Positions 20,905 to 24,481 of a DNA stretch of 64,000 nt are shown here, in pieces (within the stretch, counting starts at the first letter, position 1; each line of letters begins with the position of its first letter). Below the pieces are notes generated by a model that worked only from the letters and a program-made list of their open reading frames with translations, was not told the origin of the DNA and made no database searches. The DNA is from Aquincola tertiaricarbonis (GTDB lineage Bacteria > Pseudomonadota > Gammaproteobacteria > Burkholderiales > Burkholderiaceae_C). The stretch covers positions 2,108,001-2,172,000 of the forward strand of contig NZ_CP097636.1 of the NCBI RefSeq assembly GCF_023573145.1. The letters run 5' to 3'. The position numbers were made by a program, and so were the translations under genes.

Positions 20905-20975
20905 GCCCGGGGCGGGCATGCCACTGCTATAAGCCGGTGCAGCGCCGAGCTGCATCCGGCGCGCAGGGGTCATGC
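20905..20975 (+). promoter_or_regulatory. Candidate promoter of the GH19 gene
   Basis: A GC hairpin (GCCCGCC / GGCGGGC, 20901-20917, no T-run) follows dnaJ. TGCTATAAG at 20925-20933 then resembles an extended -10 (TGnTATAAT, one mismatch). No clear -35 was found. AGGGG before the ATG can serve as ribosome binding site. Confidence 0.4.
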
Positions 20976-21779
20976 ATGGCGATGCTCCAGATCGGTGACA
21001 GCGGACCGGCGGTCCGCAAGCTGCAGCAGGCGCTGCTGGCAGCGGGCTTCAATCCCGGCAAGGCCGACGGTGACTTCGGCGCCGGCACCGAAGCCGCGGT
21101 GATGGCCTTCCAGCACAGCGCCGGCCTGCTGCACGACGGCATCGCCGGCCCCCGCACCTTGCGGGCGCTGGGTTTGGCCCGCAGCGACAAGCTGCCCTCG
21201 GCGGTCGACCGCTTCTCGGTGCAGGTGGTGGCGCAGATGTTCCCGCAGACGCCGCTGGCGCCCATCCGCGAGCACCTGCCGCCGGTGCTCCATGCCATGA
21301 AGGCCGCCGGCCTGGCCGACCGCGTGATGCTGCTGGCCGCGCTGGCCACCATTCGGGCCGAGACCGCGGGCTTCCTGCCCATCGACGAAGGCCCGTCGCG
21401 CTTCAACACCTCGCCACGCGGCCACCCCTTCGACCTGTACGACCGCCGCGCCGACCTGGGCAACCATGGTGAGCCGGACGGCGCCCGCTACAAGGGCCGC
21501 GGCTTCGTGCAGCTGACGGGCCGCCACAACTACACCGTGTATGCCGAACGCCTGCAGCAACCGCTGGTGGAGCAGCCCGAACTGGCCAACACGCCCGACG
21601 TGGCCGCCGCGGTGCTGGCGGCCTTCTTGAAGGACCGTGAGCTGCAGATCAAGTCGTCGTTGATGGAAGGCGACCTGCGGGCGGCGCGCCGCGCCGTCAA
21701 CGGCGGCAGCCATGGCCTGGAGGCCTTTGCGGAGGCCTACCGTGTGGGCGACATGCTCACCGACGACGAGGACCTTTGA
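20976..21779 (+). CDS. Peptidoglycan-binding GH19-type lytic enzyme (endolysin/chitinase-like)
   Basis: A 267-residue protein of two parts. Residues about 3-64 form a PG_binding_1 domain (GDSGPAVRKLQQAL ... DGIAGPRTLRALG). Residues about 85-240 resemble glycoside hydrolase family 19, including the catalytic Glu in RAETAGF (E129) and the substrate-cleft motif YKGRGFVQLTGRHNY. No signal peptide or membrane anchor is seen, as in phage-type endolysins, but no other phage gene is near. It may cut peptidoglycan (muramidase-like) rather than chitin. It lies 97 bp after dnaJ on the same strand and converges on the radical SAM gene. Confidence 0.8.
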   Translation: MAMLQIGDSGPAVRKLQQALLAAGFNPGKADGDFGAGTEAAVMAFQHSAGLLHDGIAGPRTLRALGLARSDKLPSAVDRFSVQVVAQMFPQTPLAPIREHLPPVLHAMKAAGLADRVMLLAALATIRAETAGFLPIDEGPSRFNTSPRGHPFDLYDRRADLGNHGEPDGARYKGRGFVQLTGRHNYTVYAERLQQPLVEQPELANTPDVAAAVLAAFLKDRELQIKSSLMEGDLRAARRAVNGGSHGLEAFAEAYRVGDMLTDDEDL

Positions 21780-21797: not shown

Positions 21798-22922
21798 CTA
21801 GAACAGGCTGCCCTGCGCCTGCTGCGCCGCCGTCTGCGGCCGGCGGAACTGGCTGAAGTCGAGCGGGATGCGCTCACGGTCCAGGCCCAGGCGCGCGGCC
21901 GCTTTCTTCACCCGCTGGTGCAGCAGCTCGGCCCACACGCCTTTCCCGCGCATGCGGCTGCCGAAGTGGGCGTCGTTGTCCTTGCCGCCGCGCATCTCGC
22001 GGATGCGGGCCATCACGCGATCGGCCCGGTCAGGGAAGTGCTGCTGCAGCCACTGCTGGAAGAGCGGATTCACCTCCCAGGGCAGACGCAGCACGATGCT
22101 GAAGGCGGTGCTGGCGCCTGCCTCGGCCGCCGCCGCCATGATCTGCTCGACCTCGGGCTCGTTGATGAAGGGAATGACCGGCGATACGCTGACGCCCACG
22201 CGGATGCCGGCCGCCGACAAGGCCTTGACCGTCTGCAGCCGGCGCTGGGGCGAAGCCGCCCGCGGCTCCAGGATGCGGGCCAGCTGGGGGTCGAGCGTGG
22301 TGATGGAGACGTAGGCCGAGGCCATGCGGCGGGCGGCCATCGGCGCGATGAGGTCGATGTCGCGCTCGATGCCGGCCGACTTGGTGATGACCGAGAACGG
22401 ATGCTGTGCCTCGGCCAGCACCTCGATCACCGAGCGGGTGATGCGCAGCCGCCGCTCCACCGGCTGGTAGGCGTCGGTGGCCGAGCCGATGTTCAGCGGC
22501 AGGGGCTGGTAGCCGGGCCGGGACAGCGCCTGCCGCAGCCGCTCGGCCGCGTTCACCTTGGCGATGATGCGGGTCTCGAAATCCAGCCCCGGCGACAGGT
22601 TGAGGTAGCTGTGCGTGGGCCGCGCGAAGCAGTAGATGCAGCCGTGCTCGCAGCCCCGGTAGGGGTTGATCGACAGGTCGAAGGAGATGTCGGGCGAGTC
22701 GTTGCCCGACAGGATGGACTTGACGTTTTCTTCCACCAGCTCGGTGCCAGGGGCCACGTGCTCTTCTTGTGCGGCCTGCTCCAGCGCACCCCAGCCATCG
22801 TCGAAGGCTTCTCGCGCGTCGGAGGTGAAGCGGTGCTCGATGGCCCACACCGTGCCCCGGCCCTTGACGGGCGAACGGGGCGAATAGAGCAAGGTGGCGG
22901 CGGGTTGGGCATCGGGGCGCAT
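21798..22922 (-). CDS. Radical SAM protein, PA0069 family (SPL-like), SOS-controlled
   Basis: A 374-residue radical SAM protein. The [4Fe-4S] cysteines are C91, C95 and C98 in CEHGCIYC, preceded by SINPYRG as in relatives of spore photoproduct lyase. The N-terminal KGRG motif is conserved in the family named after Pseudomonas PA0069. The biochemical function is not established; the LexA box at its start suggests DNA repair or damage tolerance. The family-typical N-terminus requires the ATG at 22922, which lies at the predicted transcription start, so the mRNA may be leaderless. It follows dnaB by 56 bp. Confidence 0.87.
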   Translation of the reverse strand: MRPDAQPAATLLYSPRSPVKGRGTVWAIEHRFTSDAREAFDDGWGALEQAAQEEHVAPGTELVEENVKSILSGNDSPDISFDLSINPYRGCEHGCIYCFARPTHSYLNLSPGLDFETRIIAKVNAAERLRQALSRPGYQPLPLNIGSATDAYQPVERRLRITRSVIEVLAEAQHPFSVITKSAGIERDIDLIAPMAARRMASAYVSITTLDPQLARILEPRAASPQRRLQTVKALSAAGIRVGVSVSPVIPFINEPEVEQIMAAAAEAGASTAFSIVLRLPWEVNPLFQQWLQQHFPDRADRVMARIREMRGGKDNDAHFGSRMRGKGVWAELLHQRVKKAAARLGLDRERIPLDFSQFRRPQTAAQQAQGSLF

Positions 22923-22957
22923 ACTGTTAATATATACAGTACTCGCCGCCTGTGCAA
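22922..22957 (-). promoter_or_regulatory. LexA (SOS) box inside a sigma-70 promoter
   Basis: On the minus strand TTGCAC (22957-22952) is followed by exactly 17 bases and TATATT (22934-22929), a good sigma-70 promoter. The -10 lies inside a 20-bp LexA operator at 22922-22941: TACTGT, TAATATAT, ACAGTA on the plus strand, a perfect CTGT-N8-ACAG. LexA bound there would block RNA polymerase. The expected transcription start is near 22922, the first base of the coding region. The -35 sits in the loop of a small hairpin (22946-22963). Confidence 0.87.
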
Positions 22958-22978: not shown

Positions 22979-24394
22979 TCAGTACTCGTCGCTGGCGCTG
23001 CCCGGAGCGAGGTTGTCGAACTTGGTCAGCGGCTTCAGGAAGGTGAGCTTCACCGTGCCCACCGGGCCGTTACGCTGCTTGCCGATGATGATCTCGGCCA
23101 CGCCCGGCTCCTTCGAGTCCTTGTTGTAGTACTCGTCGCGGTAGATGAACATGATGACGTCCGCGTCCTGCTCGATGGCGCCTGATTCGCGCAGGTCGCT
23201 CATCATGGGCCGCTTGTCGGTGCGTGTTTCCACCGAGCGGTTGAGCTGCGACAGCGCGATCACCGGGCACTGCAGCTCCTTGGCCAGCGCCTTCAAACCG
23301 CGCGAGATCTCGCCGATCACCGTGGCGCGGTTTTCTTCGCTGCTGCTGCTGGTGCCGCTCATCAGCTGCAGGTAGTCGATGACGATCAAGCCCAGCTTGC
23401 CGCAGGTACGGGCCTGGCGCCGGGCGCGGGCGCGCAGTTCGGCCGGGTTGAGCGCCGGCGTCTCGTCGATGAACACGCTGGCCTTGGACAGCTTGTCCAC
23501 CGCCTCGGTCAGGCGGCCCCATTCGTCGTCGCGCAGAGCGCCGGTACGCAGGTGCTGCTGGTCGATGCGGCCCAGCGAGCCCACCATCCGCAGCGCCAGC
23601 TGCGAGGCGCCCATTTCCATCGAGAACACCACCGCCGGCAGGCCTTCGTTCACCGCCACATGCTCGGCGATGTTCAGCGCAAAGGCCGTCTTGCCCATCG
23701 AGGGGCGGGCCGCCAGGATGATCAGGTCGCCCGGCTGCAGGCCCGCGGTCATGCGGTCCATGTCGTAGAAGCCGGTGCGCACGCCGGTCACTTCTTCGGC
23801 GCCGTTTTCGGCCAGCTCGGTCACGCGGTCGATCAGCTGCATGACCAGGTGGTCCATGCTCTGGAAGCCCTGCTTGGTGCGTGAGCCCTCTTCGCCGATC
23901 TTGAAGATCTTGCCTTCGGCCTCGTCCAGGATCTGCGACACCGCCCTGCCCTGCGGATTGAAGGCATTGGTGGCGATCTCGTCGCTGGCCTCGATCAGCT
24001 TGCGCAGGATGGCCCGCTCCCGCACGATCTCGGCATAGCGGCGCAGGTTGGCGGCGCTGGGCACGCTTTGCGCCAGCGCATTCAGGTACACCAGCCCGCC
24101 GCATTCTTCGGCCTTGCCCAGGCTTTGCAGCTGCTCGAACACCGTGATCACGTCGGCCGGCTTGTTGGCGTTGATCAGCTGGCCGATCACGCCATAGATG
24201 GCCTTGTGCTCGAAGCGGTAGAAGTCGGTTTCCTGCAGGATGTCGCCGGCACGGTCCCACGCGCCGTTGTCGAGCAACAGGCCGCCGATCACACTTTGCT
24301 CGGCCTCGATCGAATGCGGCGGCACCCGCAGGCGGGCTACTTCATCGTCGCGCGGGGCGCCCGGGAACACAGGGCTCTGGAAGACTGCAGACAT
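22979..24394 (-). CDS. dnaB: Replicative DNA helicase DnaB
   Basis: Replicative helicase of 471 residues. The N-terminal primase-binding domain begins RVPPHSIEAEQSVIGGLLLDN. The RecA-like motor has Walker A ARPSMGKTAFALNIA, Walker B region LIVIDYLQLM, and SREIKGLAK-type LKALAKELQCPVIALSQLNRSVE, with MSDLRESGAIEQDADVI near the end. The ATG at 24394 (MSAVFQS) is preferred; an in-frame ATG five codons earlier is possible. It follows the rpsF-priB-rpsR-rplI group but is separated by a terminator and 249 bp. Confidence 0.97.
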   Translation of the reverse strand: MSAVFQSPVFPGAPRDDEVARLRVPPHSIEAEQSVIGGLLLDNGAWDRAGDILQETDFYRFEHKAIYGVIGQLINANKPADVITVFEQLQSLGKAEECGGLVYLNALAQSVPSAANLRRYAEIVRERAILRKLIEASDEIATNAFNPQGRAVSQILDEAEGKIFKIGEEGSRTKQGFQSMDHLVMQLIDRVTELAENGAEEVTGVRTGFYDMDRMTAGLQPGDLIILAARPSMGKTAFALNIAEHVAVNEGLPAVVFSMEMGASQLALRMVGSLGRIDQQHLRTGALRDDEWGRLTEAVDKLSKASVFIDETPALNPAELRARARRQARTCGKLGLIVIDYLQLMSGTSSSSEENRATVIGEISRGLKALAKELQCPVIALSQLNRSVETRTDKRPMMSDLRESGAIEQDADVIMFIYRDEYYNKDSKEPGVAEIIIGKQRNGPVGTVKLTFLKPLTKFDNLAPGSASDEY

Positions 24395-24481
24395 GGTGGG
24401 GAGCATAAGCCGGCCAGGCACCGCAGCCTGTGGACAGACCTGTGCATGACCTGGGGAACTTCAGCGGATAACCAGAAAGCC

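Follow-up and report, generated by a model that had tools for sequence, protein, structure and literature searches.

We propose that a radical SAM gene of Aquincola tertiaricarbonis is a LexA-repressed SOS gene with its own promoter of the sigma-70 type, that the -10 element of this promoter lies inside the LexA operator, and that the gene is expressed from a leaderless mRNA beginning at the A of its ATG. Judging from the comparison of sequences, we put the probability of this reading at roughly three in four. Operator, promoter and start codon all fall within a few dozen letters of the window, by which we mean the whole stretch of 64,000 nucleotides of DNA that was analysed.

A LexA operator, a promoter and a start codon in close register

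The features discussed here are located in the window as follows.

22979..24421, minus strand: upstream open reading frame, dnaB-like (replicative helicase), whose stop lies 56 nt before the ATG; a possible source of read-through
22957..22952, minus strand: -35 hexamer TTGCAC; by exact check its first base is at -35 from the A of the ATG
22939..22924, minus strand: LexA operator CTGTATATATTAACAG, found in the sequence by consensus search, one base before the ATG
22934..22929, minus strand: -10 hexamer TATATT, within the operator; its first base is at -12 from the A of the ATG
22922..22920, minus strand: ATG start codon, with the predicted transcription start on its A, as derived from the -35/-10/ATG spacing
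21798..22922, minus strand: PA0069-family radical SAM protein of 374 aa (NF033668, 464 bits against a cut-off of 360)

A sequence-only reading of this locus had described a perfect CTGT-N8-ACAG box over the -10 element of a TTGCAC, 17 bp, TATATT promoter. Both descriptions hold: CTGTATATATTAACAG contains TATATT, and an exact position check on the minus strand returns the 17-bp spacer. The discriminator between TATATT and the ATG reads AACAGT. The gene thus carries what marks a member of the LexA/SOS regulon, a consensus operator at its promoter, and what marks a leaderless gene, a -10 element about 12 nt before the start codon together with the lack of a Shine-Dalgarno sequence. This lack, likewise noted before, is borne out by an anti-SD duplex energy of +1.9 kcal/mol, compared with -5.3 to -8.5 kcal/mol for dnaK, rplI, rpsR and rpsF in the same window; dnaJ (-1.1 kcal/mol) and priB (-2.0 kcal/mol), also in the window, have weak Shine-Dalgarno sequences as well. 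The upstream open reading frame we take to be dnaB from the look of its protein sequence. On the other side, an open reading frame at window positions 20937-21779 on the plus strand is convergent with the radical SAM gene and by eye has the look of a peptidoglycan-binding protein of the lysozyme or chitinase type.

How might such an arrangement operate? LexA bound to the operator would cover the -10 element and the start site and would thereby block RNA polymerase. Upon RecA-stimulated cleavage of LexA, a leaderless mRNA with a 5'-AUG would be made, which would then be translated without a Shine-Dalgarno sequence. Operator, promoter and start codon would be locked together, because the 3' flank of the operator (CAGTAT, then G) supplies most of the start codon. 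LexA binding, induction, the position of the 5' end and leaderless translation are all predictions for this gene, and the terms 'tightly repressed' and 'damage-induced', which the sequence-only reading had applied to it, describe presumed behaviour.

The operator is conserved at one exact position

The bare motif is common. CTGT-N8-ACAG occurs once in the window against 0.69 expected, and 18 times in the 7.1 Mb genome against 16 for a reversed control; taken by themselves, these counts would suit a chance palindrome or the site of another regulator. We consider such an origin of the box scarcely credible. The AT-rich consensus CTGTATATATATACAG, allowing up to 3 mismatches, matches the window once and none of 100 shuffled versions. 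Across 150 genomes of the same family, CTGTN8ACAGNATG gives 138 matches against 12 for its reversed control (both totals are hand sums over a per-genome table), and 37 of the 138 lie directly upstream of a PA0069-family radical SAM gene, 36 of these 37 in its frame. The other 101 matches lie elsewhere; a few of them are the same palindrome on the opposite strand, and many of the 46 such loci inspected open very short frames, that is, they are chance matches. Among 107 radical SAM gene loci of the same family (including L184 and L236, short loci at contig ends that gave no gap), a perfect box is present at 82, a box with one mismatch at 16 and no box at 9. The genome also holds a canonical lexA (a single match above the cut-off, 230 bits against 110.95), preceded by two one-mismatch boxes and, by eye, a GGA-type Shine-Dalgarno sequence. 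According to the sections of PMC6595937 available to us, CTGT-N8-ACAG is the SOS box of most Betaproteobacteria. The shuffles of CTGTATATATATACAG, the reversed control and the positional conservation in homologues rule out a chance palindrome, and of these, conservation at one exact position is the decisive evidence that the window box is real.

A scan of homologous genes for CTGT-N8-ACAG at the same distance, which had been put forward together with the sequence-only reading, finds exactly 1 nt between the box and the nearest in-frame start codon at 37 of the 82 perfect-box loci. No other gap is found at more than 7 of them (gap 2 at 7, gap 7 at 6). For these distances the box is the perfect one nearest the gene and the start is the nearest in-frame ATG, GTG or TTG. 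The same comparison across homologues lends support to the proposed LexA control of the gene. We refer to loci with a gap of 1 as fused; in counts of this class, such as the 52 fused loci below, identical box-flank sequences are counted once.

What is the history of this arrangement? Fusion at the radical SAM gene is found in 36 of the 150 genomes searched, covering 34 genus codes by hand count. On a tree of 130 proteins, built with FastTree only and with 44 of 127 inner branches open, one clade of 37 rows (local support 99) contains 33 gap-1 loci, two loci with gaps of 2-3, L054 (gap 1, with one mismatch in the box) and one locus without a box. It includes named Roseateles, Rubrivivax, Rhizobacter, Paucibacter, Piscinibacter and Azohydromonas loci, as well as L029, which belongs to a congener of the window and whose protein is that of Aquincola tertiaricarbonis L046. 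The neighbouring clade of Comamonadaceae type (Variovorax, Hydrogenophaga, Acidovorax and others) has a gap of 1 in 0 of 32 rows. Fused loci occur outside the main clade too (L016 with L102, L123, L041). The fused/unfused label changes 8 times on the tree against 32.5 times in shuffles, and the starred branches force at least 6 changes. In Pseudomonas, each of the five named loci (among 80 loci) has a perfect box, which precedes the nearest start codon by 15-18 nt. L060, on a contig labelled as a Myxococcales MAG, falls inside the Sphaerotilaceae-type clade, probably through a binning error.

The box-adjacent ATG as the probable start codon

A leaderless message requires that translation begin at the codon next to the box. 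Alternatively, the true start may lie downstream, at the TTG of codon 11 in the window gene or at an internal ATG in Aquincola, which would leave an ordinary leader of about 30 nt. The in-frame TTG of the window gene and the presence of another possible start after the box in 26 of 52 fused loci would allow this, and NCBI annotates the Aquincola homologues P0006 and P0011 (363 aa) from an internal ATG. In the remaining 26 fused loci the adjacent start codon is the only one that follows the box, the box-adjacent ATG is in frame in 36 of the 37 loci named above, and no Shine-Dalgarno sequence precedes the TTG in the window sequence; we therefore regard a downstream start as quite improbable. The ATG that matches the internal start of P0006 and P0011 is found in the congener, L029, 16 codons downstream of the box-adjacent ATG, and the window gene has no ATG at that position.

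Further features of the fused class point to the box-adjacent codon. Across the 52 non-redundant fused loci, between 8 and 80 codons separate the start from the first conserved motif, with a single locus exceeding 41; the distance between box and start stays constant. In 17 of the 52, the whole open frame before the conserved motif holds no other start codon. The codon itself is ATG in 51 and GTG in one. GC content by codon phase is flat upstream of the start (0.66/0.67/0.68) and coding-like from codon 12 onwards (0.81/0.56/0.85), codons 2-11 showing a weaker pattern (0.68/0.61/0.71). Translation from the ATG at 22922 would give a protein with the N-terminus MRPDAQPAATLL. If operator and start codon are indeed fused, this may explain why annotation shifts some starts.

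Promoter spacing and the leaderless reading

If transcription began on the ATG, a -35 element should keep its distance from it. T(T/G)G stands exactly at -35 in 25 of the 52 fused loci and one base away in 5 and 11 more, against a background of 0.030, although a binomial comparison with this background is not a strict test because the loci share ancestry. The exact position is thus occupied in only half of the fused class, which counts against the leaderless reading. Among 46 loci with the box 13-100 nt upstream, no T(T/G)G offset is found more than 7 times, and the offset of the fused class is not among the top ones; the 35 loci with gaps of 2-12 show no clear -35 peak either (highest count 7).

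The best -10 match lies at -12 in 27 of the 52 fused loci and at -14 in 19 more, so that a leader of about 2 nt is possible in some species. Split by register, T(T/G)G at -35 is found in 17 of 28 and 8 of 24 loci, the latter subset having 8 more at -34 and only 2 of its 24 at -37. The box hexamer at offset 5, which corresponds to a -10 element at -12, has a mean score of 4.5 in the fused class and 0.2 in the far class. Resolved by gap, this mean is 4.5 for gap 1 (n=52) and 4.1 for gap 7 (n=7), and it is below zero for gaps 2, 3, 6, 8 and 9. Gap-7 radical SAM loci have the -10 at -12 in 5 of 7 cases. A clean rule, by which the favoured gaps would be those with a -10 at -12, was considered and is broken by the loci at gap 12 (n=3, mean 2.9) and the single loci at gaps 20 and 92, which also score above zero. 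Far-box loci have -10-like hexamers at operator offsets -4, 3 and 11. LexA operators are TATA-rich and contain such hexamers even where the start is distant; a -10 match alone is therefore weak, and it is the -35 element together with the fixed start codon that carries the leaderless case. The missing Shine-Dalgarno sequence separates the classes weakly: a duplex of -4 kcal/mol or lower is found in 0 of 52 fused loci, and only 10 of 54 loci with gaps of at least 10 reach it.

Could the transcript originate further upstream? The message might come from an upstream promoter or from dnaB read-through and be translated from the same ATG with a leader and without a Shine-Dalgarno sequence, LexA then acting as a roadblock. 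No more than 56 nt separate the end of the dnaB-like frame, which lies on the same strand, from the ATG, and several fused relatives have, by eye, kept a similar frame end just upstream. Yet no column upstream of the -35 is strongly conserved (at most 0.33 bits from -45 to -20 relative to the box), and the blocks that are conserved, namely the -35 and the operator together with its immediate flank, are spaced so as to put the start on the ATG. We hold such an upstream origin to be unlikely, though less so than a downstream start codon. The leaderless layout with its predicted start on the A of the ATG, as the sequence-only reading had it, gains support from this comparison across homologues.

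The encoded enzyme

The protein belongs to the radical SAM superfamily (Pfam PF04055, 52.8 bits against 29.5) and carries the cluster motif C91-x3-C95-x2-C98 (CxxxCxxC), the cysteines of which are invariant in 61 of 61 aligned homologues. The gene had been described as SPL-like, and as far as the radical SAM family and the overall fold of spore photoproduct lyase are concerned, this description stands. It does not extend to the lyase profile, photo_TT_lyase (TIGR04070), on which the protein scores 15.6 bits against a cut-off of 400, nor to the hydrogen-donor cysteine. In the solved spore photoproduct lyase, the hydrogen donor is C140. The window protein has no cysteine beyond 91, 95 and 98; as none lies outside the Fe-S motif, the hydrogen donor of spore photoproduct lyase is absent, and a role of this radical SAM enzyme in DNA repair is therefore a presumed one. 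Identity to spore photoproduct lyase (4FHC and relatives) is 15-16%. Among the 61 homologues, an additional cysteine occurs at position 172 in 20 and at position 342 in 25, neither being invariant. The second-best NCBIfam profile, that of Rv2578c-family radical SAM proteins, gives 218 bits, below its cut-off of 430 bits. If the proposed regulation is correct, an uncharacterised radical SAM enzyme with the SPL fold would be flagged as an SOS function.

Relation to known systems

PA0069 we presume to belong to COG1533. The sequence-only reading had placed PA0069 of Pseudomonas among LexA-controlled genes. In the open-licence literature, we found no paper that mentions PA0069 together with LexA; PA0069 is mentioned in three papers, in one of them in connection with strain construction. 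SplB/COG1533 is SOS-regulated in several species, and in Bacteroidetes SplB/COG1533 is found so together with COG1573-COG4277 (PMC8565304, in part). The portions of PMC8565304 and PMC6595937 at hand already place SplB-type radical SAM genes and the UDG pair under SOS control. The betaproteobacterial LexA/SOS regulon, with the A. citrulli boxes of PMC6595937, resembles the window locus in its operator consensus and in having radical SAM genes among its targets. Unlike our description of the window locus, the same portions of these texts hold neither a fusion of operator and start codon nor leaderless SOS messages.

Leaderless messages are likewise known from Burkholderia, as far as the excerpted text of PMC4603805 goes. 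In B. cenocepacia, the mapped start coincides with the annotated start in 72 genes and lies within 10 nt of it in 42 more, 24 of these leaderless transcripts being tRNAs; in place of a Shine-Dalgarno sequence, the leaderless genes have a TA-rich promoter motif immediately before the start codon, as is the case here (PMC4603805, in part). Their starts were mapped, and LexA and SOS occur 0 times in the text (PMC4603805). The window locus differs in that a repressor operator gives both the -10 and the context of the start codon.

The classic leaderless mRNA next to an operator is that of lambda cI from P-RM, a repressor-controlled promoter. That promoter is not known to have a LexA operator that makes up its -10 and borders on the ATG. 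Among the titles and abstract openings that our searches of the open-licence literature returned, we found none on a fusion of LexA operator and start codon.

Similar designs at other SOS genes

Is the fusion confined to the PA0069 family? In the same genome, a perfect box (L007, C2:56664-56679) overlaps by one base the GTG of rSAM_link_UDG (TIGR03916, 549 bits), giving ACA[GTG]. Its homologues (48 loci, L261-L308; 7 weak or partial loci, L309-L315, were left out) comprise 17 fused loci, 22 with the box elsewhere and 7 without a box, one duplicate and one partial locus having been dropped. Among the 39 non-redundant homologues that have a box, 17 are thus fused, 13 with a perfect and 4 with a one-mismatch box. 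The best -10 lies at -12 in all 17, and T(T/G)G stands at -35 in 5 of 17 against a background of 0.025. Relative to the PA0069 family, the promoter is shifted by two bases on the operator, together with the start codon. For the unfused loci a leader is possible. GTG is a poor start on leaderless mRNAs in E. coli, which counts against the leaderless reading of the fused rSAM_link_UDG genes.

A third register is perhaps represented by umuD. The sample consists of all 48 matches above the cut-off (L316-L345, L405-L422), of which one could not be oriented and one is a duplicate. Of 47 oriented loci, 24 have an in-frame start codon within the operator, at offset 8 (21 ATG, 2 GTG and 1 TTG), and 21 of these 24 have their best -10 at -12. 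The beginning of the protein (mostly M-Y/N/H-S) would then be encoded by the operator itself. Further in-frame start codons follow downstream in 23 of the 24, and at 7 of the 24 loci the box carries a single mismatch. We regard umuD as the weakest of the three cases, because T(T/G)G is found at -35 in 0 of the 24. Two umuD loci, L137 and L408, show another register, with the box one base before the ATG. For a plasmid-borne umuD of A. citrulli, the box has been described, with no further comment, as reaching from the upstream region into the first part of the coding sequence (PMC6595937, in part).

Fusion as a uniform trait of all SOS genes is ruled out by recA and lexA, whose boxes (at 28 of 30 and 24 of 30 loci, respectively, with 3 further lexA boxes not oriented) lie at scattered distances; recA gaps of 1, 2 and 3, one locus each, count any in-frame ATG, GTG or TTG and may be spurious.

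We tentatively envision, with odds somewhat short of even, that the SOS targets of Burkholderiales include a separate class of operator-locked leaderless genes. Start codons would have settled 12 nt downstream of the operator's -10-like hexamers in several registers: ACAG-N-ATG in PA0069-family radical SAM genes, ACA[GTG] in rSAM_link_UDG, an ATG within the operator in umuD and perhaps gap 7 in some Comamonadaceae. Such genes would be off down to the start codon, and their induced leaderless mRNAs would be translatable by intact 70S ribosomes during damage. Should this hold, a start codon and a promoter element would be united with a textbook repressor operator in one object, apparently reached more than once. 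A corollary is that leaderless translation would be predicted for SOS repair genes, and the long-standing question of what purpose leaderless mRNAs serve could be put to the test in a single inducible gene.

At L251, L252 and L154, reading frames for small proteins (about 100-125 aa) open one base behind a perfect LexA box; the L251 and L154 products match no Pfam or NCBIfam family. At L009, in the same genome as the window, a small open reading frame begins 5 or 17 nt after its box.
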